From Streptomyces zhihengii (GTDB lineage Bacteria > Actinomycetota > Actinomycetes > Streptomycetales > Streptomycetaceae), in assembly GCF_016919245.1 (NCBI RefSeq), contig NZ_JAFEJA010000003.1, positions 554,215 through 618,214 on the forward strand: a stretch of DNA of 64,000 nt, in the 5' to 3' direction. A program made the translations under genes and the position numbers. Under the pieces are notes generated by a model, which was not told where the DNA came from, ran no database searches, and worked only from the letters and a program-made list of their open reading frames with translations. This document shows positions 14,133 to 37,637 of this stretch, piece by piece. The stretch's first letter is position 1, and every line of letters starts with the position of its first letter.

Positions 14133-14468
14133 TCAGCCCGCCGGAGCGAGTACCGTCAGGCGCAGCACCGTGGCGATGGCGATGAGGGCGGGCATGGTGA
14201 ACCACCAGCGGCGCAGCCAGCCTGCCTTGACGAAGAGAAGCGTCAGGATGCCGGTGACCGCGGTGACGCCCATCCCCAGGCCGGCCGCGACGCCGGAGTG
14301 CGCGGCGGTCTCCGTGGTGCCGGGCTCGACCATGTAGGCGAGCAGGATCAGATACGTGGCGACGAGATGTCCCGCGCTGAGCAGAACTCCGCACGCGATG
14401 GTTCCCAGGCGGCCGGCACCGCGGCGTTCGGCAGGGTGTCCGGGGGAGGTACTTGCTCGCGTGGCCAT
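14133..14468 (-). CDS. small polytopic membrane protein, 111 aa
   Basis: Three hydrophobic helices are visible: TIACGVLLSAGHLVATYLIL, GVAAGLGMGVTAVTGILTLL and PALIAIATVLRLTVLA. The ATG at 14468 overlaps the TGA of the transglycosylase-like gene (TGATG), with a GTG at 14471 as alternative, so it is translationally coupled as the third gene of the type VII-like set. It could be an immunity or export-associated membrane protein. That role is inferred from position only. Confidence 0.7.
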   Translation of the reverse strand: MATRASTSPGHPAERRGAGRLGTIACGVLLSAGHLVATYLILLAYMVEPGTTETAAHSGVAAGLGMGVTAVTGILTLLFVKAGWLRRWWFTMPALIAIATVLRLTVLAPAG

Positions 14469-15808
14469 CACCGCAGGGACTCCTTGGCCTCGTCCAGGTG
14501 CTGATCGAATTGACGGCCGTAGCGCTGGGCGTCGGCGCTCTCGTAGTACGGGCCGCCGTTGTAGCGGGCGGCGAGTTCCTGCATCTGCTCGCGTGTCATC
14601 TTCTCCGGCGGCACGTCGGCGAAGCCACTCTCCGCCTTGAGCTGCGCCAGGTACTCGGAGGCGATGAAGATGTTCGTCGCGGGGGCCTTGACGGCGTCCA
14701 CGACGACGGCACGTTGCGTGTCCGTCAGGGTTTCCGGGTCGTAGCCGAGGACTTCGGCGGCGCGACGGATCTGGATGGCCATGGGCCCCATCGAGGTCCG
14801 GTCCGGGTCTTCGCTGCCGGGAAGGATCTTGCGGCCTTCGAAGGCCGCGTCGTCCAGCAGGCCGGGATCACCTGCCACTTCCTTCCAGGCTATGCCTGCC
14901 ACCATTTCCGGGGGAAGTCCGGAATCCGCTGCTGCGGCCTTGAGGAGTTCCTTGTTGGCCGCGATGTACTCGCGACGGTCCTCGTCCGATGTGGACAGCC
15001 ACCAGTAGTTGTTGCCCACGCCTTCCGGCAGGCTGTTCACCCTGGTCTGGATGCGGAACAGCGCCTCCGACATGTACACGTGCTCACCCACGGTGGGGAT
15101 CGAGTCGACCTTGGGGCCGGCTCCCGGCAGCTGGGTCCCGGCGTTCCCCCTGGCTTCCCGGGCCTCCGTCTGGAGTGGCACGAGGCCCTTCAGGAAGGCC
15201 GCGATGTCGGGCACCGTGCCCTTGAACTCGGGTATCGCCTTGTAGGCGGCCTTCAGGTCGGCGACGCACAGCCGACGGGCGGCCGACTCCACGCGCAGCG
15301 CGTCACCGTAGTGGTCCTTGGTCTGGTTGTAGAGGCGTTCGGCGTCGTCACGGATCGCGTCCACGTCCACGGTCGCCTCGGCGAGCCAGTCCATGACGCC
15401 TGTGCTGGCGCGCAGGTCTTCCCACTGGCGCAGGGGTTCCGCCGCCCGTGCGGTGGGTGTGATGGCGGACGCCTCCCGGGCCATGACCTCGGAGAGCTTG
15501 CTCTCGGCAGCCCGGCCGTTCCGGTAGTGCGTCTTCGCGGTCGTGACGGCATCGGCGTATGCCGCGAGCGCTGTCGAGGCCTTCCGGAACGCCTCCGAGA
15601 GCCCATCGGCCAGCGAGCGGCTCTCCTGGAGCCGCTTCGCGTACAGATCGCGCGCGGAGCTGACCCACGCGATCCGCCCCGCCTTCCGGAAGGCGTCGTC
15701 AGTGGAGTCGATGAGCGTGTGCAGTCGCCGGAACTCGGCGGCGTTCCGGTCGATCAGCGCCGGATTGGCTTCTTCGAGGAAGGCGACGTCCGCGTGATAG
15801 GCCATCAC
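14468..15808 (-). CDS. type VII secretion-associated lytic transglycosylase-like protein
   Basis: Residues 1-230 are long amphipathic helices resembling the N-terminal secretion-signal region of T7SS-exported Streptomyces proteins. Residues about 275-446 resemble a soluble lytic transglycosylase or goose-lysozyme fold: a candidate catalytic Glu in GIAWKEVAG (E310), a Ser-Met-Gly segment (TSMGPMAIQIR, near 340) and ARYNGGPYYES (414-424). The expected substrate is peptidoglycan. GTG 15808 or ATG 15805 serves as start, with GAGG inside the end of the upstream gene. The gene is flanked by a WXG-like gene and a small membrane protein, which supports an export or toxin role. No ESX secretion core is in the window. 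Confidence 0.7.
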   Translation of the reverse strand: MMAYHADVAFLEEANPALIDRNAAEFRRLHTLIDSTDDAFRKAGRIAWVSSARDLYAKRLQESRSLADGLSEAFRKASTALAAYADAVTTAKTHYRNGRAAESKLSEVMAREASAITPTARAAEPLRQWEDLRASTGVMDWLAEATVDVDAIRDDAERLYNQTKDHYGDALRVESAARRLCVADLKAAYKAIPEFKGTVPDIAAFLKGLVPLQTEAREARGNAGTQLPGAGPKVDSIPTVGEHVYMSEALFRIQTRVNSLPEGVGNNYWWLSTSDEDRREYIAANKELLKAAAADSGLPPEMVAGIAWKEVAGDPGLLDDAAFEGRKILPGSEDPDRTSMGPMAIQIRRAAEVLGYDPETLTDTQRAVVVDAVKAPATNIFIASEYLAQLKAESGFADVPPEKMTREQMQELAARYNGGPYYESADAQRYGRQFDQHLDEAKESLR

Positions 15809-20971: not shown

Positions 20972-23620
20972 CTACTCCTTGACTGGGGTCGCCTTCAGCA
21001 GGGGCAGCCACTGTGATGGCAGCGCCTGCTCGGCCCGGAAGATGTCGGCGAGTTCGGCGAGGCTGAGCACTGTGATCGTGCGTGCTCGGGCAGTGCGCCA
21101 CGACCGGATGAGGCGGTCGAAGACGTCCAGGACCGTTGGCTGGCGTACGAGGTAGGTCTCGTCGTTGGCGAGCATGCGCGCGGCGGCCATGATCTTCGGC
21201 TTGGGGGACATGAGGAGCGCGATGGAGCCGCTGGGCGCAGAGGCCTTTCGTTCTGCCTCCGTGTACCTGAGGTGTCCTTGTGCCTGGCGGACATTGTCCG
21301 GACCGATCTCACCGGTGGGCGTGGCTTCACTCTTCGCCTCCCAGGTGACCCAGCGGGCGTCGTCGAAGATCCAGACGGCATCAGGGGCTGCGGGGTTGGC
21401 GTCGTCGTCGTTGCCGTAACTTTCCGAGGCGCCGGCGAAGCTGCCGAGGTGGACGAGTCCGGCTTCGTAGGCGCGGTACTCGGTGCCTGCGAGGCCGGCC
21501 CGCGCTTCGGTGAGGGCCCGTTCGAAGGGCTCGGGACGGTGCAGTTCGGTACGGGCGATGACGGCGAGCATCGCGGCTTCATCAACGGGGGCGAGGTCGC
21601 CGAGGACGGGCGCGTGGGCCCGGTCGCTCGGCGAAGCGATGTGGGCGAGGAAACTGCTGGTCTGCGCCTTACGCTGGAGCTCGCGGTAGTAGCGGACACC
21701 GGTGGCGCGGTGCGTTGAGTCTCCGCCCTGCTGCGCGAGCCGCTCGGCGATGCTGTACCCGAGGTAGTTCCACAGCGCGGCATAGCGCTGGGGTGTCCGC
21801 TCGCCCTTGAGCTGGTCCAGGACGCGCTGTACGGCGGTGAGGGCCCAGTCCCATTGGTTGTTCCAGATAGCTTCCCAGGCCGCGACCTCGTGCCGGGCCG
21901 CGTTGTGCAGCTCACGGGAGCTGGGGGCGACGGTTCGGGTGTACTGCTCGCGCTGGGAGGAGATATGGGTGTCGACCCCAGCCCAGTCCTGATCATGCCT
22001 GCGGAAGACGGCGAGGTTGTCGAGCATCTCGCTCGAGGTGGTGCCCAAGCTGTTCGTCCGTCCGAACTCGACCTCGGCGTGGACTTCCGGGTGCAGCGCC
22101 CCCTGAACGTCTGGACCGGACAGGTACGACGTCAGGGACCGGCCGAGCACCATGACGGCCGCCCAGTCTTTGTTGTTGCGTGTGGCCCGGCCCGAGCCCT
22201 GCACGATGCGCGCGCGGATGCGCTCCTGAAGCACTTCCAGGGCGCCGAGTGATTCGTGCAGGAAGCGTTCCTGCAGGTCTCCTCGGGCGGGCAGGCCTGC
22301 GAGTACGACGAGCCGGCAGTCGTCTCCAGGGAGGTCTATGCCGTCGTAGCGGTTGGTGAGGAGCAGGACCGCCTGGTCCATCGCGGTGAAGGCAGTGAGG
22401 TCGTCTTCGACGTCGTTGGCCTTCACGACGGGGTGTGTCTCGGGCAGGCACTCCTTGGCGAAGGTCTCGGCTGTACGGCTGTCGGGGGTGAGGATGACGG
22501 CTCGTCCCGCGCTGCTGACAACCCCGGAGACGAAGGCGGGTACCCGCGCGGGCGCTGTGGACAGGTCGTCTGTCAGTTCGGGGAACATGAAGAACCGTCG
22601 CCCGGTGCCCCGGGTTTCCCAGCCCTTGGGGACGGGGATACGGTCGATCTTCCTTCGCCCGAAGGCACGCTCGAGCTCGCCGCCGTCTCCGAGGGTCGCA
22701 CTCATGTATACGCGGCGGACAGGGCTGTTGAAGGCCTCGTGCTGCGCCGTGGGCGCGATGAGGGGGCGGATGAGGATCTGTCCGTACGAGACGTAGATCA
22801 GGCATCGGTCGAGGCGTCCCTGGAGGAACTTCCAGGCATGGAAGGCGTTCGTACTCAGCTTCGAGCCGTGGGCTGCTGCCGCGACGGCTTCTTCGAGGGG
22901 GAGGGACTGCTCGGCAACACCGATGGGGGAGGCGAGGTACACGTACGCCGAGGAGTCTTCTGTCTTCGGAGCGCGCAGCCGGGTGTCGACGAGTGGATCC
23001 AGCGCGGGCTTCAGCACGGAGAGAACGTCGAGGTACGCACTCTCCTCGGTCTTGCGGGAGATGGCGAGACTCCACGGACCGGCCACGTACCCCTCGGCCG
23101 CGTGAGCGTCGTCCAGGACGAGCATGCCAGCGTTGTCGAGAGCCGGATTCGAGTTGAAGACATGGCTGTAGACGCTGACGGCGACGGCTTCCCCTGCCTC
23201 GTACTGCGCCTGGTGGGCTGGATTCCATGTATTCACGCGATTGACGAGCAGTACGTTCGGAATTCCATACTCGTCGAACTTCGCTGCCGTCTGCCGCGCC
23301 AATTGCCGCGTGGGACAGAGGTAGGCGACACGTTCGCCGTGTTTGCGGCGCCGGTACTCGCTGATCAGTCCTCCGACAAGAGTTTTACCCGCCCCGGTCG
23401 GCAGCTCAATTGCTACGTCTGACGCGTCCGACTTCGTTTCGTGCCAGTCTCGAAGGACATCCTGTTGGTGTCCCCACACGAATTCGGGCCCACGGTTCGT
23501 CAGGGCAAGAATCCGATACAGGTCGACCGGGTCTTCTGGCATGGCCGCCTCGGCGGACTTGAGCTTGAAGGCCACTGCACTCCGTTCCCCCCGCTGAGCT
23601 GACAAGAGCTCAGCATCCAT
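20972..23620 (-). CDS. DEAD/DEAH-type helicase with C-terminal PD-(D/E)XK-like domain
   Basis: Superfamily 2 helicase motifs in order, counted from the ATG at 23620: Walker A PTGAGKT (74-80), motif Ia near CPTRQLARQ, Walker B VLDDAH (168-173), motif III MSATLGDGG, and motif VI QGSGRATRNN. In the C-terminal third, PDAVWIFDDARWVTWEAKS followed by VRQAQGHLRY resembles the D...ExK core of a PD-(D/E)XK nuclease. At 882 residues it is longer than simple helicases. A TTG at 23641 is an alternative start. It precedes, on the opposite strand, an HNH gene and a NACHT-nuclease gene, which suggests a defence role; that is inference. Confidence 0.8.
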   Translation of the reverse strand: MDAELLSAQRGERSAVAFKLKSAEAAMPEDPVDLYRILALTNRGPEFVWGHQQDVLRDWHETKSDASDVAIELPTGAGKTLVGGLISEYRRRKHGERVAYLCPTRQLARQTAAKFDEYGIPNVLLVNRVNTWNPAHQAQYEAGEAVAVSVYSHVFNSNPALDNAGMLVLDDAHAAEGYVAGPWSLAISRKTEESAYLDVLSVLKPALDPLVDTRLRAPKTEDSSAYVYLASPIGVAEQSLPLEEAVAAAAHGSKLSTNAFHAWKFLQGRLDRCLIYVSYGQILIRPLIAPTAQHEAFNSPVRRVYMSATLGDGGELERAFGRRKIDRIPVPKGWETRGTGRRFFMFPELTDDLSTAPARVPAFVSGVVSSAGRAVILTPDSRTAETFAKECLPETHPVVKANDVEDDLTAFTAMDQAVLLLTNRYDGIDLPGDDCRLVVLAGLPARGDLQERFLHESLGALEVLQERIRARIVQGSGRATRNNKDWAAVMVLGRSLTSYLSGPDVQGALHPEVHAEVEFGRTNSLGTTSSEMLDNLAVFRRHDQDWAGVDTHISSQREQYTRTVAPSSRELHNAARHEVAAWEAIWNNQWDWALTAVQRVLDQLKGERTPQRYAALWNYLGYSIAERLAQQGGDSTHRATGVRYYRELQRKAQTSSFLAHIASPSDRAHAPVLGDLAPVDEAAMLAVIARTELHRPEPFERALTEARAGLAGTEYRAYEAGLVHLGSFAGASESYGNDDDANPAAPDAVWIFDDARWVTWEAKSEATPTGEIGPDNVRQAQGHLRYTEAERKASAPSGSIALLMSPKPKIMAAARMLANDETYLVRQPTVLDVFDRLIRSWRTARARTITVLSLAELADIFRAEQALPSQWLPLLKATPVKE

Positions 23621-23811
23621 CCCCGTTGCTCGGCTGCTCAAAGTACTGCAGCATGCCGGGCCGCTGGCAACAACTGGATGCCGAGGTGGTGATGCATGTC
23701 CACGCGTCCGAAGGAGAGACCACGACTCGGACCTGTCCGTGGAGGCAGACGAACGATCTCGCCACGGGCTGTCGCATGCACGCTCCCGGGGCGGTGTCCG
23801 CCGTTACACGG

Positions 23812-23920
23812 TCAGGAGCTGGTAGCTATGCGGCAGGCGGGGCATACCTTGGGGCTTCGGGCCCCATAGCGGTGGATCGGGGCAGCACACAGCGTGCAGG
23901 GCCTATCTAAAACGCAAGCT
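23812..23920 (-). pseudogene. zinc-ribbon C-terminal fragment
   Basis: The minus-strand frame reads RPCTLCAAPIHRYGARSPKV then CPAC and stops shortly after. Two CxxC pairs about 17 residues apart suggest a zinc ribbon from the end of a longer protein. No start or upstream domain is present. Confidence 0.35.
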
Positions 23921-24083
23921 CGCCGCCCGGCTCGCGCACCAGGGCATCGAGGCCCTCCGTGATCTGGCCGACGAGATCGCCCGAACTGGCGGGCACGGCT
24001 GCGAGTAGGAGACCCTCTACGACGAAGTCCTGCCCACGCTCCCTGGCCTGCTGAAAGCCGGCCACCTGAGCGGCAGTTGCTGA
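23904..24083 (+). pseudogene. helical C-terminal fragment with an in-frame TAG
   Basis: The frame reads YLKRKLAARLAHQGIEALRD and on to HGCE, then TAG at 24006-24008. It continues in frame with coding-like sequence (ETLYDEVLPTLPGLLKAGHL) to a TGA at 24081. Composition is clearly protein-like on both sides of the TAG, so a sense codon probably mutated. No start is visible. Confidence 0.35.
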
Positions 24084-24341
24084 CCTCGCGCCAGGCGGAC
24101 AGGGCGGGGAGGCAGGGCTGTCTTCCACACCTGGTCCTCCCGCCATGGGTGCCAGCCGCGAATGGAGAATCTCGGCTGTGCCGTGTCTGGGAGAGGCGGG
24201 TGCGCGCCTGCGGGCAGGCGACGGTTCGCGACCGGCGCCGCAGGCAGCACGACGACGCACGTGGAGCGCGCCGGGTCGGTATCGCCCCGGCGCGCCACAA
24301 AAAGCCAGCGACCGAGGGGCGAGGGCCATTACGCTCCCTGA

Positions 24342-25211
24342 ATGTCTGACAAGCGGCCTCCGGGCACGTTGGGTGTTGACCTGCGCAAGCCGGGACTTCG
24401 TCCCTGCGGGCTGTGCGGTGAGGTGCGCGGGATGACGAAGGCGCATGTGCCGCCGAAGGTAGCCGGCAACCGAGGCAAGGTGACCAGCGCAACCGTTCGG
24501 GTCCACAACAACGTACGCAGCGTGGGTCGACTCGACGCGGGCGGCATGTGGATGCGCGGACTCTGCGGCGACTGCAACAGTCTCGCGGGACTGAACTACG
24601 ACAGCGCTTATGGCGACTTCGCCAAGGCTTTGGACACCTACCAGCGGGCGCGCTCGCTCCTGCTTCTTCCGCGGGCTGCCCCAGCGCCGCCCGTACGCGT
24701 CGCACCAGGCCGGGTCGCCCGGTCGATACTGATCGGGATGTTCGCCACCACTCCACAGCTGCGGGTGATGTTCCCGGGACTCGCCGTCGACCTTCGCGAG
24801 CGGCGCTCTCACATTACGCTGCCCGAGGGAGCCTCGCTGCGCGTGGCCCTGTATCCCCTGAGGTGGACACGCCTGGCCAGCATGTTCAGCAACTACCGGG
24901 TGCTGGGGCGCAGGCTCTACTACAACGTGTTCTCCGAGGTCTACTTCCGCCCGCTGGCGTGGGCCCTGATACCCAGCGACCGCGGGTACGACGAGCACAT
25001 GGGCGAGTCCGTCTTCGACAACCTCGGATGGGCAACCGTGGACGACTGGCTCCAGTACGGCGATGACGTCACAGGGGTCGATCTGCGCGACCTCTGCCGC
25101 CGCGGCATCCCCCACGTGCGGCACCCGCTGTCCGGGCACGAACAGGACAACTGGGTCCAGCTCTTCAACGACAAGATCACGGCCATCATCGAAGGCGAAA
25201 TTCCAAGCTGA
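24342..25211 (+). CDS. HNH-type nuclease-like protein, 289 aa, defence-module partner
   Basis: Residues 20-80 carry an HNH/zinc-finger layout: CGLCG (C22, C25), TKAHVPPK with the likely catalytic His at 35, and CGDCNS (C75, C78, N79). The remaining 200 residues are of unknown fold with many aromatics (VYFRPLAWALIPSDRGYDE). It is followed after about 160 bases, on the same strand, by the large NACHT-nuclease gene, so the two may form one module. ATG at 24342 has no strong ribosome site. Actual nuclease activity is inferred from the motif. Confidence 0.7.
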   Translation: MSDKRPPGTLGVDLRKPGLRPCGLCGEVRGMTKAHVPPKVAGNRGKVTSATVRVHNNVRSVGRLDAGGMWMRGLCGDCNSLAGLNYDSAYGDFAKALDTYQRARSLLLLPRAAPAPPVRVAPGRVARSILIGMFATTPQLRVMFPGLAVDLRERRSHITLPEGASLRVALYPLRWTRLASMFSNYRVLGRRLYYNVFSEVYFRPLAWALIPSDRGYDEHMGESVFDNLGWATVDDWLQYGDDVTGVDLRDLCRRGIPHVRHPLSGHEQDNWVQLFNDKITAIIEGEIPS

Positions 25212-25369
25212 CGTGCTGGGCCACGGGCGGGAACGGGCAGCCCACGGTTGGATAATGGCCCTCACGCTCGATCCACCCGCGTCCCGTCGGCCGCCGGGCG
25301 GGGATACCCCAGAGGGCTCCAGCACCCTCGATGGCCGGCAGCCCACACCGCGCATGCCAGGAGAACACG

Positions 25370-28300
25370 TTGATACAGCAGCAGTTCCCATGGCAGCGGC
25401 GCGTGTTCGTGCTGGACGAGCCCCCTGCTCACGGCCGTTACGGATGGCCGCCCAGCCACGCACAGGCTGGTGTGCTACTAGCCCAGGAGCGGGCCACCGC
25501 GATCATCGTGTTGCGTGGCGAACGCGGCATGGGCAAGACGTACGCCCTGCGCCAGGAACACGATGCCCTCCTGTCCGCCGGTCTGCATCCCGCCTGGCTC
25601 GACCTGAAACGGTGCACCACGACCCGCAGGGCGCAGAGTCACCTGCAAGAAGCACTTACACCCCCCACCGAACCAGGGGAGTGGCACATCCTCCTCGACG
25701 GCCTGGACGAGGGCCTCAATGACCTCCCCCAGTTGGACCAGCTCCTGCTGGAGGCGCTCGAGGATGTGGCCGAAGCAGACCGCGAAAGGCTTCGCCTGCG
25801 GATCACCTGCCGCAGCGCCCGCTGGCCGGCCCGGTTCGAAGAAGCCCTGCGCGCAGACTGGCAACCCGACCAGATAAAGAGCATGGGCCTGACCCCACTC
25901 GGCCCCGACGACGTAGCCGTCGCAGCTGGGATGGTCGGCGTGCCGGACACTACTGCCCTGCTCGAGTCGATCCAGCAGCAGGGACTGGTGGCGCTGGCCA
26001 CCCACCCGGTCACGCTGCTGCAGCTCCTGGACAGCTACACCCTTCACGACCGCCTGCCGGCAACGGTGCACGACGCCTACCTCCAGGCATGCCTGCGCCT
26101 GTGCACCGAGCACCGCCGCCCCACCAACCCGACCCAGCTCCAGGCGCAGGCATCACCCGAACACCTGCTGGCCGTCGCGGCCCGGCTGGCGGCCACGATG
26201 CAATTTGGTTCATACACCGCGGTGACCGAGGACGAATCCGGTACGCCGACAGACCTGCGCCTGTCGCGGCTCGACGGCCTTGATGAACCCGGACACCTTG
26301 GCGGCAACGTCCCGTGCACCCTGTGGAATCTGCGGCAGGTCACCGAATCAAGCCTGCTGGTCCCGACCGGTGACCTGCGCTGGACCTTCGCCCACGACAG
26401 CTATCGCGAATTCCTCGCCGCGCATTTCCTACGCATGCACCATTTGCAGCCGCAGCCCCAGCGCCAACTGCTGTGGATCGGAGACGGCGAAGCCCGCCAC
26501 ATCATCCCCGCCCAGCAGGAAGTCGCCGCCTGGCGCACCACCAGTGACGCCACCCTTTTTGCCGACCTCCTGCACGACGACCCCCTCGTCTTGCTTTTGG
26601 CCGACCTGCCCAGCCTGCCCGACACCGACCGAGAGCGCGTAGTTGACGCCCTGTTCACCCTGCTGGAACGGGATGACACGGTAAGTCTCGACCACAGCCT
26701 GCTGCACCGCCTTAACCACTGCCGACTGGCCGGCCAGCTGCGTACTCGCCTGCAGGAGCCCGGCGAGCCCCGGTTGACGTATGCGGTAGTCAGCATCGCC
26801 CGGGCTTGCCCCCACCCCGAACTCGCCGACGACTTGCTGGACGTGGCCGAAGACGCGCGCTACGACACAGGCGTGCGCACCGCTGCCCTAGCCGGCGTCA
26901 CCGAGCCCACGCCTGACACCCTCACCCGGATCATGGACCTGACCCAAGATCCTTCGCCCGAGGTGATCGCTGCGGCCCTACGCCACCTCTATCCCGGCCA
27001 TCTAACGGCGACCGGCTACCTCGACCGCATCCGCGACCCGGACCCGGCGTTCGTGGGCACCGCCTTCATCCTGCGCAATGAGGCACCGGCACAGCTCGAC
27101 GGCAGCACCATCGCCGAAGCAGCCCAATGGGCCGGACGTGCCCTTCGCGCGGGAGATGCCCAGTCCACCAGCCCCAGCCTGGCCCTGGCCGTGTTGGGCC
27201 GTGCGGTTATTCTCAACGAGGAGACCCCCGCCCTCGACCTCGTGCCCTTCATTGGCGAGGGACTGCTCGGCCTTGCCGACGACGAGGACCGCCTGCACAG
27301 CTCGCTCCTGCAGACCTCTCTGGAGGACCTGGCTCAATCTCTGGACAGCTGTCCCCAGACCCGGCGCCTACTCGCCCGCCATATCCTTCAGCACTCCGAG
27401 GACGATCCCTTCTACACCGTGCTGGCCGGCATCCCCGGCGGTTCCTTCCTGCCCGGTGCCGACCTGCTGTACTGGATGGAACACTGGGACCAACTCATCG
27501 CCATCAATCCGGCCCGCGCCCAGCAGGCTGTCCGCTTCGCGCCCCCCGAAGAGCCTCAAACAAAGGCACGTGCGGATGCCGCGCGCCGCGCCCATCCCAC
27601 GCTCGCCGAGGCCACGGCATTCTGGGAGACTTATCAACGCGATCAGCGAGAACGCTCTGCCCGAGCCGAAGCGCAACGGCGACAACAGCGCTTTGATCCG
27701 GCCGCCCTGAGCACGGCCATCGACGAGGTTCGCGCCGCCCGCGGCCCAGACGTCCTGACCGCGTGGAACGCCCTCCTGAACTACCTGCGGCGCACGCCGG
27801 ACGGATCACCAGCGCGACACACCGGTGGCGTGTCCATGCTGGCCGCCCGGGCACCCTCACGTCCCGCCACCGGCACCGACCCCGCCCGGCGCCTCAGCCA
27901 GGCAGCCACTCACCTCCTGAGCGAACTCCCCCCGCTGACCACAGCCAACTTCCGCCCAGCTTCCACCGCCCGCCCGCCGTCCGCAGAACTCACCGCCTTC
28001 GCCCTCGTCGACAACCCGGTAGCGCTACACGCCAGCCCCGAGCACTGGGCCGGCTGGGCCGTCGCCCTCGCCCAAAACCCCGCCTACAATGCCGAGGAAC
28101 GCCAGCTACAGCGCACCTGGATGCCACTGTGCGTTGCGCGTGCCGAAGACCAGCTGCCCCCGCTGCTGCTGGATACCCTCGACCACGTCACCGACCAGAC
28201 CTTGCGCGACCTGGTAAAAGCCTTGGAAGGGGATCCCTCATACAAGCTCCAAACGCTCCTGTCTGCCTGGGCACGGCACAGCGACCGCAGCCCCGAGCAG

Positions 28301-29536
28301 TGGTGTGCCGTTCTTGAGGAACTCGCCGCCGCCGAAGACCGCAACGCCCTCGGCCACCTGGTGGACGCCCTCGACACCGATCCGCGCGGACACGAGCCCG
28401 GCTCGCCGCCACGGCAACGCTGGCTTTTCGCCGCCCGCGCCCTGCTGCGTCACGACATCCTGCCTGACCACTGGCCCGCTCTGCGCCGCGGCTTGGCCGA
28501 CGCCACAGTCTTGGCGGAATACGGCAACCTGCTCACCGGCCTGTCGACCGGCCCCGATGGAGGGGCCTTTGACCACCTCGACGACGACGTACTGGTCGAT
28601 CTCTACACTCTCCTTCTGAAGGACACCGGCATCGCACGCCTGCAACGGCCTCTGCGTGGTGGCTTCATCCAGCAGGAAGACCGCCTCGTCGACCTGCTGC
28701 GCCACCTGCCACGCATCCTCGCCTCCCGTGAAACCCACCACGCGGCAGCCGCTCTGTACCGGCTCGCCCAGGCCTACCCGCTCGTATGGCAACTGCGCGT
28801 GCTCGCCCGAGCCACCGCCCGCACGGCGGCGGACCGTAGCATCCTGCCTCTCGAGCCCGAACAGATGATCCGGCTTGTCACCGACCACCAGGCACGCCTC
28901 GTCCGCGACGCCCGCCAACTCCTCGACCTGGTCCGTGAATCCCTGGCCGCCCTGGAGGAAGACCTTCAGGGCTACAACGGAACGGCCGTCAGCCTCTGGA
29001 ACCGTAACCAGCACCGCTTCAACTCCAGTACCCAGTGCTGGCCCTGCTGGGAAGACGACCTCAGCGACGCCGTCGCTTCCTTCCTGCGCCGTGACATCGG
29101 CGGCCACCGCGTCGTCGTCAACCGGGAAGTCCAGGTACGACGCGACGGCCTGCCCGGCCTGCGCACCGACGTCCAGATCGAAGCCCCCGCTTCTCCCGAC
29201 ACCGGTCAGCACACCCTCAGAGTCATCATCGAGGCCAAGGGATGCTGGAACCCAGAGCTGCCCACCACCGCCCGAACCCAGCTGCGCGCCTACCTCAGCG
29301 AACCCGACACCGCGGGACTGCTCCTGGTCGGCTACTTCGACTGCACGCGCTGGAACACCAAGAAGCGCAGCTGCCCCGCGACCAACCACGGCATCGACGA
29401 CGTCCGCCGCGAGCAACGCGAGCAGGTTCGTCATCTGACCCACGAGGGCACACTGCTGGCCGCAGCGCACGTACTGGACTGCCGGCTGCCGAGTGAGGAC
29501 AGCGACTGGCGCAAGACGACTGACGAGATGTCGTAG
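25370..29536 (+). CDS. NACHT-like STAND ATPase with C-terminal PD-(D/E)XK nuclease domain, about 1388 aa
   Basis: Numbered from the TTG at 25370, which has AGGAG seven bases upstream (an ATG at 25331 lacks a site). The P-loop is GERGMGKT (50-57) and Walker B is ILLDGLDEG (about 107-115), the acidic D-x-x-D/E pattern of NACHT/STAND ATPases. A helical sensor-like middle follows, with HEAT/TPR-like repeats over about 800 residues. The last 150 residues contain NREVQVR, RTDVQIEA and VIIEAKGCWN, which read as E...D...ExK of a PD-(D/E)XK nuclease, then LLLVGYFDCTRW. The architecture matches antiviral STAND (Avs/bNACHT) proteins with a nuclease effector, which oligomerise on sensing a phage protein. 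The target is unknown. Confidence 0.82.
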   Translation: MIQQQFPWQRRVFVLDEPPAHGRYGWPPSHAQAGVLLAQERATAIIVLRGERGMGKTYALRQEHDALLSAGLHPAWLDLKRCTTTRRAQSHLQEALTPPTEPGEWHILLDGLDEGLNDLPQLDQLLLEALEDVAEADRERLRLRITCRSARWPARFEEALRADWQPDQIKSMGLTPLGPDDVAVAAGMVGVPDTTALLESIQQQGLVALATHPVTLLQLLDSYTLHDRLPATVHDAYLQACLRLCTEHRRPTNPTQLQAQASPEHLLAVAARLAATMQFGSYTAVTEDESGTPTDLRLSRLDGLDEPGHLGGNVPCTLWNLRQVTESSLLVPTGDLRWTFAHDSYREFLAAHFLRMHHLQPQPQRQLLWIGDGEARHIIPAQQEVAAWRTTSDATLFADLLHDDPLVLLLADLPSLPDTDRERVVDALFTLLERDDTVSLDHSLLHRLNHCRLAGQLRTRLQEPGEPRLTYAVVSIARACPHPELADDLLDVAEDARYDTGVRTAALAGVTEPTPDTLTRIMDLTQDPSPEVIAAALRHLYPGHLTATGYLDRIRDPDPAFVGTAFILRNEAPAQLDGSTIAEAAQWAGRALRAGDAQSTSPSLALAVLGRAVILNEETPALDLVPFIGEGLLGLADDEDRLHSSLLQTSLEDLAQSLDSCPQTRRLLARHILQHSEDDPFYTVLAGIPGGSFLPGADLLYWMEHWDQLIAINPARAQQAVRFAPPEEPQTKARADAARRAHPTLAEATAFWETYQRDQRERSARAEAQRRQQRFDPAALSTAIDEVRAARGPDVLTAWNALLNYLRRTPDGSPARHTGGVSMLAARAPSRPATGTDPARRLSQAATHLLSELPPLTTANFRPASTARPPSAELTAFALVDNPVALHASPEHWAGWAVALAQNPAYNAEERQLQRTWMPLCVARAEDQLPPLLLDTLDHVTDQTLRDLVKALEGDPSYKLQTLLSAWARHSDRSPEQWCAVLEELAAAEDRNALGHLVDALDTDPRGHEPGSPPRQRWLFAARALLRHDILPDHWPALRRGLADATVLAEYGNLLTGLSTGPDGGAFDHLDDDVLVDLYTLLLKDTGIARLQRPLRGGFIQQEDRLVDLLRHLPRILASRETHHAAAALYRLAQAYPLVWQLRVLARATARTAADRSILPLEPEQMIRLVTDHQARLVRDARQLLDLVRESLAALEEDLQGYNGTAVSLWNRNQHRFNSSTQCWPCWEDDLSDAVASFLRRDIGGHRVVVNREVQVRRDGLPGLRTDVQIEAPASPDTGQHTLRVIIEAKGCWNPELPTTARTQLRAYLSEPDTAGLLLVGYFDCTRWNTKKRSCPATNHGIDDVRREQREQVRHLTHEGTLLAAAHVLDCRLPSEDSDWRKTTDEMS

Positions 29537-29578
29537 ACGCCCGGCCTGCCGCGGCAGTCCTCAACTCGGGCCGCGCGT

Positions 29579-29990
29579 TCAGCCGTCCGCACGCGGCGAG
29601 AATGCCAGGACCGCACCGTTGGGGCGTTGCTGGCCCAGCCATTGCCCGAGAGGGCAGCCGGCTTGCCGGGTGTATTTGTCCGGGGTGAGGTGGCCGTTCT
29701 GGGAGACGTAGGCGCGTGCGTGGCCCGGGCCGGGGCTGACGCTGCAGGAGCGTGTGGCCGAGGCGGGCCGTTCGCTCGTGTCGGCGTGGGGTGTGATGCC
29801 GAGGGCGGTCAGGAGATCCTGCTGGGCGGGGTGGAGATGCTCCCAGCACTCGCGCTGGACACGGGTCCAGCGGCAAAGGCCTCGGGAGAGGCTCGTGGCC
29901 GGGACGCCGTCGGCACCCGTAGCTGCTGTGCGGATGCGGTGGTAGGTCTGCTGCCACTGCAGGGGGCCAGGGCGGATTCCACCACGGATC
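29579..29990 (-). pseudogene. helicase-associated (HA) domain remnant
   Basis: The minus-strand frame to the TGA at 29579 reads WQQTYHRIRTAATGADGVPA, RWTRVQRECWEHLHPAQQDL, and NGHLTPDKYTRQAGCPLGQW. These W-, H- and GxxLGxW-rich repeats are the hallmark of helicase-associated domains at the end of large Streptomyces helicases. No start or helicase core is present, so this is a C-terminal remnant. Related pieces lie at 42512 and at the right edge. Confidence 0.65.
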
Positions 29991-30083
29991 GATCATGGTC
30001 AAAGCCTTCCCCGGATCGGGGAAAGACGCCCCTCGTTGGCGCGTCGTCGTTGCCAGGCCAGCCACTTCCCCAGCGCGGTCCAC

Positions 30084-30290
30084 GTGGACGCGACAGCCGT
30101 ACGCTTCGACACCCCGATACCCGGCGACCTGCTGCCAGCCTTCACCTGGCACAACGCTCGAGGCAAGACCCGCAACCTGAAGTACATCGTGGACGGCCGC
30201 CTGGAGCGCTCCGTCAGCCTCCAGGGCTTCTGCCGACTCACCTCCGAGTCCCCCGATACGCTGGACGGGCTGGTCGACAGCGTCCAGTGA
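30084..30290 (+). CDS. small hypothetical protein or fragment, 68 aa
   Basis: From the GTG at 30084 the frame reads VDATAVRFDTPIPGDLLPAF, then TWHNARGKTRNLKYIVDGRL. The composition is protein-like and unlike the reverse frame. No ribosome site or known motif is seen. It may be the tail of a lost gene. Confidence 0.35.
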   Translation: MDATAVRFDTPIPGDLLPAFTWHNARGKTRNLKYIVDGRLERSVSLQGFCRLTSESPDTLDGLVDSVQ

Positions 30291-30347
30291 GACCGGCAAG
30301 CCGCGCACCCCGATGCCCACCGGCCGAGGAGCGGTATCCCTATCGCG

Positions 30348-30722
30348 CTACACGCTGCCCGCCCAGACCCCGTCAATGCCGGCGGCGCCCCATCCGGCGA
30401 CCTCGGGCGGGTTGAGCGTGGCTGTGGCCTGCACGTAGTCGACGTCAGAGCAGCCGCGGACGGCGTGTTGCCGGGTGGACGTGAGCGTCCACGTTCGGCC
30501 GGTGCCGTCGGAGATGGTGTCGCCGTCCTTGACCGGCCACCCCTTGGGGTCGAGCCGTACGGTCCATGTGCCGTCGGGCTGTTCGAGGACGGAGCTGGGC
30601 CAGGTGGCGCGTGGTGCGGGCCGTCGGCCCGGGGGCGGGGTACGGGTACGCCGTTGGCGTCGCGCGCCCAGGGGGGCGAGGACGTACGCGGTGAGCATGG
30701 CGTTCGGGAGCACGACGGCCAC
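30348..30722 (-). CDS. phage-like or element-borne hypothetical protein, probably frameshifted
   Basis: The C-terminal 70 residues (EQPDGTWTVRLDPKGWPVKD and on) look genuine: a compact beta-rich domain ending in YVQATATLNPPEV. From the GTG at 30722 the first 16 residues are also convincing, but the middle is Arg/Pro-rich. The alternative frame there (WARDANGVPVPRPRADG) reads better, suggesting two compensating shifts around the six-G run at 30671-30676. A small head-tail type phage protein is one possibility, inferred only from size and neighbour. Confidence 0.45.
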   Translation of the reverse strand: MAVVLPNAMLTAYVLAPLGARRQRRTRTPPPGRRPAPRATWPSSVLEQPDGTWTVRLDPKGWPVKDGDTISDGTGRTWTLTSTRQHAVRGCSDVDYVQATATLNPPEVAGWGAAGIDGVWAGSV

Positions 30723-31577: not shown

Positions 31578-33044
31578 TTATTTGGTTTCTTTGAACACTC
31601 GCTCGATTACAGCGTCAGGGCAGCCAAGAATTCGCAGTGAGTGCGCTCGGACGATCAACTCAAGAATCCTGACTACTTCGTCGAGTTTGTGTTCTTCGTA
31701 TCCTCGGTTGCCATGCGCGAGATTATTTCGTACCACGCGCAGGGCACTCGCGGCTGTCGTTGGTGCCGGAGGTTGCGATATGACGTCCGCGACGAGTGCG
31801 GTTTTCGCGAGGTGATGCATGGAATTCACAGGCAGGTCGCTAACTGTAGCATTCAATGCTGATTCGAGGCTCGTCGGCGGGTTCTTTAGAAGCGATTTTT
31901 TGAGGAACCTCATTGTGTCGCTGTCAACCTTATCCTTCAGGTCGACGATGACACTCTCGCGCTTAGATAGGTGCTCCATTTTGCGCCGATTGTATTTGTC
32001 CTTCATTTCGTGACCATGCAGACCTTCCAGCGCTTGGATTAGAAGCAGGAACCGTGACCGTGGGTGCTGGTCGCGCGCATGGAGCATCGATCCGTAGGTT
32101 TCCACTAGTGGGTGGTGCGTGGCAGCGTACTGTCGCCATTTGAGGATAAGATCCAGAAGTGAAAGGTCATCATTTTTGGCCCGGACAGCGCTGCTGTTGG
32201 ATCGGATTTCATTTGACGAGCTCGCGAACGGTTTCTGGTCAATGCCCGTACCGAAAACTTGCAGCACGCCAGAGGAGGCCATCAGCTCGACCGAAACATA
32301 CGTCAGGTCCTGAACTTTTCCGGTCGCGATACAAATGATCCGGCGCAGCGGCTCTACGAACTCATCCATAACGACGCGAAGCGATGCACCTTCCCTTACC
32401 TTGAGCTCCGCCACTGGGCTAAATGCCAACCGGAATTCATAGCCATCCATTGTTCGCATCCGACCCTCGTAGCCAACAGTGAGCGAAAGATCCTCGACTT
32501 CCCACTTACCCTTCGCTTCCAGGTCGAGGTTCGCGCTCCATAGATCTTTAGGGTTCTCCGGATGTATTCCAGGGGTTTGCACGCTCTTGATAGGAGAGAT
32601 GCCAATGACTGCATCGAGAGCCGTCACTTGGAATTTCACGGATGAAATTAGCGGCACATCGCTTGCGTGATCGAATGCTGTTCGCGGACTGTGTCGACCG
32701 AAAAATTCACGTCCCTTGCCGAGGAGTGCCGCGCTTCCCGAAATGTGCCCTTGTCCCATCGACCAGTAAGTGATGGAGGCGTCTAGCAGAACTACTGATC
32801 CGCCGTTGGCTAGAGTTCCAGCAAGCGCACAGAATTCAACTACCTGCGGAAAGGAATACACGCCGGGGGATTCGCTATTCAGTGGCACCGAACCATATAT
32901 TGAACCCGTGGGCGGGCGATTGGGAAGCACCTTTAGGTTACCGGGGAGTTCGGCAATGCCGCCCCTTCCGTCGGGGACAGTCCAGGTGCAAAGGTAGTTG
33001 TCCGGCTCGTACGGCAGTCTGAGCGGAACAATGCTTTCAGGCAA
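31578..33044 (-). CDS. apeA: ApeA-type HEPN anti-phage protein, 488 aa
   Basis: The length, the N-terminal all-beta region (PDNYLCTWTVPDGRGGIAEL, GSVVLLDASITYWSMGQGH) and the C-terminal helical domain resemble the ApeA family. The HEPN ribonuclease motif R-x4-H is present as RNNLAHG (R439 to H444). ApeA is known as a single-gene abortive-infection defence protein. The start is TTG at 33044; an upstream in-frame TGA excludes a longer form. Base composition is clearly less GC-rich than the neighbours and AT-ending codons are common, so it was probably acquired recently. Its 5' end abuts a broken DUF6262-like gene. Confidence 0.8.
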   Translation of the reverse strand: MPESIVPLRLPYEPDNYLCTWTVPDGRGGIAELPGNLKVLPNRPPTGSIYGSVPLNSESPGVYSFPQVVEFCALAGTLANGGSVVLLDASITYWSMGQGHISGSAALLGKGREFFGRHSPRTAFDHASDVPLISSVKFQVTALDAVIGISPIKSVQTPGIHPENPKDLWSANLDLEAKGKWEVEDLSLTVGYEGRMRTMDGYEFRLAFSPVAELKVREGASLRVVMDEFVEPLRRIICIATGKVQDLTYVSVELMASSGVLQVFGTGIDQKPFASSSNEIRSNSSAVRAKNDDLSLLDLILKWRQYAATHHPLVETYGSMLHARDQHPRSRFLLLIQALEGLHGHEMKDKYNRRKMEHLSKRESVIVDLKDKVDSDTMRFLKKSLLKNPPTSLESALNATVSDLPVNSMHHLAKTALVADVISQPPAPTTAASALRVVRNNLAHGNRGYEEHKLDEVVRILELIVRAHSLRILGCPDAVIERVFKETK

Positions 33045-36687: not shown

Positions 36688-37637
36688 TTTGAGGGTCCGT
36701 TTCGGTCCCTTCGCTCCTGTCTGATCCCAACACGCCCCCGGTCACGCCTGTTTGCGCCCTGTGGCGTGACGGCGGGCATCGCTACTACAGAAACATGCCT
36801 CGTCGACAGCGCCCGTATCCAAGTGACCTGTCCGATGCCCGCTGGGAGCTGGTGGAACCGACTCTGACAGCCTGGCGGGCCAACCGGAGAGGGAAGGGCC
36901 TGGACATCGGCCGGCCGCCCGAGCACGACCTGCGTCGGATCATGGACGCCATCCTCTACGTCGACCGCACCGGAATCCCGTGGAGGTATCTGCCGCACGA
37001 CTTCGCCCCGTGGGAGACCGTCTACGGATACTTCGCCGCATGGCAGAAGGACGGAGTCTTCGAGCAGCTCAACAGTCTCCTCCGCCGGCTCGTGAGGGAA
37101 GCTGAGGGCCGGGACGCCGAGCCGAGCGCCTGCGTCCTCGACGCCCAGAGCATCAAGACCTCCGCGAACGTCCCCGTGTCAGGCCAGGGCATCGACGCGG
37201 GCAAGAAGATCGCAGGCCGCAAGCGCCACATCGGCGTCGACACACTCGGCCTTCTCCTGACCGTGCTGGTCACCGCCGCCAGCGTCTCCGACAACGTCGG
37301 CGGAATCCGCCTGCTCTCGAACATCGCCGCCGATCACCCCCGCATCACCAAGGCATGGGCCGACACCGGCTACCGCACAAAGGTCATCGATCACGGTGTA
37401 CGCCTCGGCATCGACGTCGAAGTCACCCGCCGCGATCCTGCCCAGAAGGGCTGCAAGGTGATTCCGCGGCGGTGGGTTGTCGAGCGGACCTTCGGCTGGC
37501 TCATGCATCACCGCCGCCTCGCCCGCGACTACGAGACCCACCCCCACCGCTCCGAAGCCATGATCAAGGTGGCGATGGTCGACCTCATGAGCCGCAGGAT
37601 CACCCGAGAGTCGACTCCGAACTGGAAGGACTCATAG
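36688..37637 (+). mobile_element. IS5-family insertion sequence, ends approximate
   Basis: The element contains one complete transposase gene. Candidate ends are GAGGGTCCGTTTCGG starting at 36691 and, inverted at the right end, GAGTCCTTCCAGTTCGG just inside 37633. These share a GAG tip and TTCGG core but are imperfect, and no target duplication was found, so the exact ends are uncertain. The right end overlaps the stop of the adjacent zinc-binding gene. Confidence 0.55.
36795..37637 (+). CDS. IS5-family DDE transposase, 280 aa
   Basis: A complete DDE transposase: first Asp in ACVLDAQSIKTS, a conserved AGKKIAGRKRHIGVDTLG block, second Asp in AWADTGYR, and Glu in RWVVERTFGWLMHHRRLARD. The N-terminal domain (YPSDLSDARWELVEP, GIPWRYLPHDFAPWETVYGY) is also typical. 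Length is normal and there is no frameshift, so it may be active. The start is the ATG at 36795. Confidence 0.93.
   Translation: MPRRQRPYPSDLSDARWELVEPTLTAWRANRRGKGLDIGRPPEHDLRRIMDAILYVDRTGIPWRYLPHDFAPWETVYGYFAAWQKDGVFEQLNSLLRRLVREAEGRDAEPSACVLDAQSIKTSANVPVSGQGIDAGKKIAGRKRHIGVDTLGLLLTVLVTAASVSDNVGGIRLLSNIAADHPRITKAWADTGYRTKVIDHGVRLGIDVEVTRRDPAQKGCKVIPRRWVVERTFGWLMHHRRLARDYETHPHRSEAMIKVAMVDLMSRRITRESTPNWKDS

Follow-up and report, generated by a model that had tools for sequence, protein, structure and literature searches.

A large NACHT-class ATPase with a predicted C-terminal PD-(D/E)XK nuclease, distantly related to EruA, beside an HNH-like gene in Streptomyces zhihengii

We analyzed a 64,000-nucleotide stretch of the 9.73-Mb genome of Streptomyces zhihengii (assembly GCF_016919245.1, contig NZ_JAFEJA010000003.1, positions 554,215 to 618,214; from here on, the window), in which a gene for an HNH-like protein (P0001) is followed on the same strand by a gene for a large ATPase of the STAND (signal transduction ATPases with numerous domains) class (P0002). 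A first-pass annotation had described the two as a candidate new STAND defense module, in which a 1388-residue ATPase with a GERGMGKT P-loop, an LLDGLDEG Walker B motif and a C-terminal PD-(D/E)XK-like domain lies directly after an HNH-type partner. The STAND open reading frame (ORF) at 25331-29536 (+) encodes 1401 aa from an ATG; from a TTG at 25370, which is preceded by AGGAG at a 6-base spacing, it encodes the 1388 aa of that annotation. The nine closest relatives among those listed have 1388-1398 aa, and TTG 25370 is probably the better-placed start. The two genes do not overlap, and the gap between them is 119 or 158 bases, depending on the STAND start. Both frames look like real genes because comparison with a second genome, G568, indicates purifying selection on each: the ratio of nonsynonymous to synonymous changes (dN/dS) was 0.029/0.086 for the STAND gene (178 differences over 1401 codons) and 0.016/0.051 for the HNH-like gene, the latter value being imprecise with 21 differences over 289 codons.

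To describe the ATPase, we aligned P0002 with 46 of 62 listed relatives (31-93% identity; 16 short or distant ones omitted). G68 and K69 of the P-loop and D123 and D126 of Walker B were invariant in all 47 aligned sequences, in line with the first-pass reading of both motifs. Near residue 353, the alignment consensus is F-A-H-x-S-Y-x-E-F-L-A-A, which we take to be the NACHT-type winged-helix signature; P0002 thus has the Walker A motif, the acidic Walker B motif and the presumed winged-helix signature of a STAND/NACHT protein. The Pfam NTPase models all scored below their cut-offs on P0002 (best E 0.0016). The least conserved long stretch is the middle region, residues 441-1120, with a mean column identity of 0.54 compared to 0.65 for the ATPase (residues 52-440) and 0.66 for the nuclease (residues 1165-1390). 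Four of the listed STAND relatives match PF13646 in Pfam, presumably HEAT_2, and the middle of P0002 is presumed to be a solenoid-like sensor.

The C-terminal part of P0002 carries E1241, R1265-E1266, D1280 and E1301-x-K1303, all invariant in the 47 aligned sequences. A separate alignment, A3, omits locus L021, whose match stops at residue 1246. The predicted structure of this part has a PD-(D/E)XK fold, with the best structural alignments to BamHI, Can2 and McrC, and places a D-Xn-E-X-K motif on the predicted alpha/beta core. Thus, the C-terminal nuclease-like domain proposed in the first-pass annotation also withstood the structure prediction that had been suggested as a check. No Pfam nuclease family was found in any of 27 STAND C-terminal tails, and a sequence search of solved structures returned one chance-level match for the tail (E 0.11) and none for the whole protein. 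The P-loop starts at residue 63, too close to the N-terminus for an effector to precede it, and the domain order of P0002 is ATPase first and nuclease last.

P0002 matched the NCBIfam profile antiphage_EruA (NF058535), which stands for a NACHT domain-containing antiphage protein, at 7e-44 and 150.3 bits, short of the equivalog cut-off of 1000, and more weakly the HyoA profile (NF058534) at 6e-24 and 83.7 bits (cut-off, 1200), with the best stretch at residues 353-561. The EruA profile matches the genome twice at the STAND gene, over profile positions 23-736 and 1065-1263, so that the C-terminal end is included in the similarity, and the relative P0057 matches it over positions 22-1269. P0002 and P0057 thus have on one profile the EruA layout of a NACHT ATPase near the N-terminus, a long middle and a C-terminal region, which in P0002 is the nuclease end; the length scale is also alike. 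Seven further STAND relatives scored 189-310 bits against EruA, all below the cut-off. Based on these profile scores and the layout of the matches, we place P0002 in a wider EruA/HyoA-like group, but it is not EruA by the curated definition and, being far below the cut-off, is a distant relative. By this divergent kinship, a STAND ATPase with a C-terminal nuclease is of an already known kind, and the first-pass suggestion of a new STAND defense module was not borne out in this respect.

Avs (AVAST) proteins likewise use a STAND ATPase as sensor, some with nuclease effectors, and carry the effector at the N-terminus; the P0002 tail resembles Avs3 (8dgc) at chance level only (Foldseek E 0.55). 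According to PMC12169576, bNACHT proteins consist of an N-terminal effector, a central NACHT and a C-terminal sensor, and the Clade 6 proteins bNACHT25 and bNACHT32 combine, like P0002, a NACHT ATPase with a PD-(D/E)XK DNase effector; however, their nuclease is N-terminal and their sensor C-terminal, whereas the P0002 nuclease is C-terminal. P0002 therefore does not have the tripartite Avs/bNACHT layout. Its effector-last order departs from that better-studied layout and raises the question of how an assembling ATPase ring would present a nuclease that lies at its sensor side. In the library searched, we found no literature on EruA or HyoA as antiphage proteins; the EruA of PMC12839154 is a SlyA-family regulator. 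At E 1e-20, a profile built from nine NACHT proteins of ~1400 residues retrieved at least 1869 database proteins, the nuclease motif being examined among the 120 listed, and STAND relatives occur in several phyla. The locus thereby highlights a large group of ~1400-residue NACHT proteins with a C-terminal nuclease.

HNH nucleases are recognized by CxxC pairs with a conserved His and Asn. P0001 has this pattern (C22-x2-C25, T-K-A-H35-V-P-P and C75-x2-C78-N79), and in an alignment of P0001 with 36 of 71 relatives (37 rows; 35 omitted), C75, C78 and N79 were invariant and H35 was present in at least 90%. The CxxC...H...CxxCN pattern is shared with Pfam HNH_5 (PF14279), but the score was below threshold (E 0.12, 12.8 bits; cut-off, 27.5), no NCBIfam model matched at E 1, and P0001 is thus not recognized by a curated model for HNH nucleases. 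Where HNH nucleases have a beta-beta-alpha metal fold, the confident AlphaFold2 model (predicted local distance difference test [pLDDT], 91; predicted template modeling score, 0.91) shows strands plus one helix surrounding the motif; neither a search with this structure nor a sequence search with the HNH profile returned a solved structure. Accordingly, of the first-pass HNH label the residue pattern stood, while no curated family or solved structure backed it; it is the motif that carries the label, and P0001 is possibly an HNH nuclease whose large C-terminal part is unfamiliar. The features of the locus are listed in Table 1.

Table 1. Coordinates of genes, domains and motifs in the window
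Feature	Position	Strand	Basis and remarks
HNH-like gene (P0001)	24342..25211	+	ORF, 289 aa; AlphaFold2 pLDDT 91; Pfam HNH_5 E 0.12
NACHT/STAND ATPase-nuclease gene (P0002)	25370..29536	+	1388 aa from TTG; NCBIfam EruA profile 7e-44
HNH+STAND cassette	24195..29619	+	blastn against G568 loci L092/L093; boundary sequences inspected
Walker A GERGMGKT, residues 63-70	25517..25540	+	ORF translation, alignment
Walker B LLDGLDEG, residues 121-128	25691..25714	+	ORF translation, alignment
Middle region, residues 441-1120, presumed solenoid-like sensor	26651..28690	+	column identity
Predicted C-terminal PD-(D/E)XK nuclease, residues 1165-1390	28823..29500	+	alignment, predicted fold
Nuclease motifs RTD and IEAKG	29162..29170 (RTD); 29228..29242 (IEAKG)	+	
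Helicase, DEAD/ResIII + Helicase_C_2, PADLOC PDC-S28	20972..23641	-	outside shared block
ApeA_NTD1 + HEPN_Apea protein	31578..33044	-	both Pfam models above cut-off; outside shared block

The HNH-like and STAND genes are shared as one block with G568. Window positions 24195-29619 match two copies in that genome at 95.7% and 95.8% DNA identity over 5.4 kb (blastn, L092/L093). Within 20 kb around each copy, matching stops at both ends of the block, except for a transposase gene; both boundaries lie just outside the two genes, and the flanks are unrelated. By eye, we found no terminal repeats or transposon ends at the block boundaries. The two copies lie in a 13-kb segment that is repeated near the chromosome ends of G568 and is 99.85% identical between repeats; in one copy, the HNH gene is frameshifted (L092:12390-13251) beside an intact STAND gene, and the other copy is intact. 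The sharply bounded block in G568 supports that the HNH-STAND linkage is real at short range. Two database strains also appear to carry both genes on one contig: in S. nigra, the locus tags ACIQSP_27980/27985 form a pair with the same longest contig (STAND 93% and HNH 96% identical), and the STAND relative of Streptomyces sp. Tue6028 (78%) and the HNH cluster P0069 (88%) agree in their number of contigs (4) and in their longest contig (57275).

At the 27 other named STAND loci (L002-L028), no HNH gene was found in the DNA covered, which was not 9 kb on both sides in every case: L002, L009 and L019 have only ~0.8-1.9 kb upstream, and L016, L023, L024, L025 and L028 comprise the C-terminal end only or a contig end, so that the gene start may be uncovered. 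In a 392-genome genus sample, HNH was detected in 4 genomes at E 1e-20, while 17 had the STAND C-terminus at E 1e-10, 6 of these matches being weak with 27-35% identity and one a fragment; both genes occurred together in the window's genome only. The N-terminal STAND piece was detected in 9 of 392 genomes of a nearly identical genus sample without the window's genome. With that genome counted, HNH was present in 2 of the 150 nearest relatives and 3 of 264 genomes of the order sample, and the STAND N-terminus in 8 of 394 genomes of the family sample; no HNH gene was found at the other fetched STAND loci, some of which have a 1.5-kb flank only. G568 was the sole further genome found with both genes. 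HNH relatives occur in 11 plasmid records, 9 of them with at least 80% query coverage, and STAND relatives in 12; no accession contains both. HNH as an obligate STAND partner was rejected on the 27 named loci, the genus-sample overlap and the other fetched STAND loci. Co-occurrence, which the first-pass annotation had proposed as the check on the pairing, therefore holds among close relatives and fails beyond them, and the partnership survives as the 5.4-kb block. On this comparison of the block in G568 with the HNH-free STAND loci elsewhere, the pair is a lineage-limited cassette. No conserved STAND partner other than HNH was found across loci (ORFs of at least 100 aa, E 1e-8). We note that in G091, G064 and G193 (STAND) and in G166 (HNH), paired copies lie at mirror-image distances from the ends of linear chromosomes, and these genes thus appear to lie in terminal inverted repeats.

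We surveyed the neighbors of the HNH-like gene at 11 loci outside the window (L053-L056, L063, L064, L093 and L101-L104; L065 was left out). A STAND gene adjoins it at one (L093), a DISARM system is nearby at one, a PtuA/AriA-like ATPase at one and a DUF4238 gene at two, and at six no close neighbor was recognized. In the DISARM case (L104:7793-15533), drmA and drmB lie upstream of the HNH-like gene in the same orientation, drmB being ~1 kb away (DrmA 2e-289, DrmB 7e-72). The PtuA/AriA-like ATPase, matched over its C-terminal part, lies ~1.7 kb upstream of HNH in L064. The DUF4238 gene, for which there was no PADLOC match, is directly upstream on the same strand in both cases (L053:6817-8852 and L063:6866-8755), making a DUF4238-HNH pair possible. 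In L056, an annotated ATPase and a UvrD helicase lie ~4 kb from HNH. These neighbors are suggestive of an association with defense, 11 loci being too few for statistics. The HNH-like family would be inexpensive to test as a possible mobile defense accessory.

We consider it reasonably probable that P0002 is a self-contained, EruA-related, NACHT-class anti-invader sensor and that the HNH gene is separately mobile and not required. Since STAND relatives occur that have neither HNH nor a widely shared neighbor beside them, the protein most likely works on its own. In such a protein, the variable middle would recognize an invader-derived or infection-altered molecule, upon which the NACHT modules would assemble in an ATP-driven manner and cluster the C-terminal PD-(D/E)XK domains. 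This clustering could switch on DNA cleavage, and phage would be stopped or the infected cell killed. The HNH-like gene would be a separately mobile plasmid and chromosome-end gene that became linked to STAND in a single lineage. There, it may contribute a second activity of its own, although the STAND protein would not depend on it.

A different reading of the block is a lineage-specific two-gene module in which the STAND protein senses, both nucleases act and the HNH-like protein is a second effector or modulator. Co-inheritance in G568 between unrelated flanks, purifying selection on both genes, the S. nigra tag pair and the equal contig figures for Tue6028 and P0069 argue for such a module; nevertheless, we regard it as unlikely, given that no HNH was found in the DNA covered at 27/27 other named STAND loci, that HNH relatives occur without STAND alongside, that 119-158 bases separate the genes and that a frameshifted HNH gene sits beside an intact STAND gene in one G568 copy. 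A two-nuclease immune cassette, in which a NACHT sensor with its own PD-(D/E)XK effector also commands a separate HNH-like nuclease, seems more doubtful still; if true, members of the HNH family would act as plug-in effectors or adaptors and pass between systems based on DISARM, PtuA, DUF4238 and NACHT.

There is a substantial chance, somewhat short of even, that the HNH-like gene is an independent defense or mobile-element gene drifting among islands and that its nearness to STAND reflects island geography. A STAND neighbor at only 1 of the 11 viewed loci, with DISARM, PtuA/AriA-like and DUF4238 genes at others, fits this possibility, but the G568 block, which holds the two genes and is bounded just outside them, exceeds mere neighborhood. 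It is compatible with the self-contained sensor that we favor, and the odds of the two overlap. As bacterial STAND proteins also act as transcription regulators (PMC7159879), P0002 could instead be a developmental or regulatory ATPase. We consider this very improbable in view of the patchy spread (17/392 for the C-terminal piece and 9/392 for the N-terminal piece), relatives across several phyla, the C-terminal nuclease, the paired copies in chromosome-end repeats of several genomes and the defense-type neighbors.

With regard to these neighbors, the divergent helicase at 20972-23641 (-) matches the PADLOC candidate defense family PDC-S28 (7.5e-109), and the ApeA-like protein at 31578-33044, which sits in a G+C dip to 58%, matches PDC-S58 (9.5e-08). 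The defense-like neighborhood of the first-pass annotation, helicase included, was thus recovered, and the best reading is that P0002 lies within a defense island. What looks by eye like a nuclease motif, D...WEAKSE, lies close to the helicase C-terminus. At E 1, neither P0001 nor P0002 was assigned to a PADLOC family. A phage origin was rejected on the following searches: P0002 matched none of 50,697 phage records, and the P0001 scan of viral contigs gave 5 pattern hits without a relative among them. Two PHROGs of unknown function matched P0001 weakly (best E, 0.00028). A promoter scan of 23500-30500 gave 0 sites, with 0.6 expected by chance. As to an RNA component, no Rfam family reached its gathering score within the window. 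An IS4/5-family transposase is encoded at 36795-37637 (+), and similar genes lie near STAND in L003, L004, L021 and L093. Finally, the protein encoded at 14468-15808 (-) has weak, sub-threshold similarity to a type VII secretion system (T7SS) signal and an SLT-type transglycosylase.
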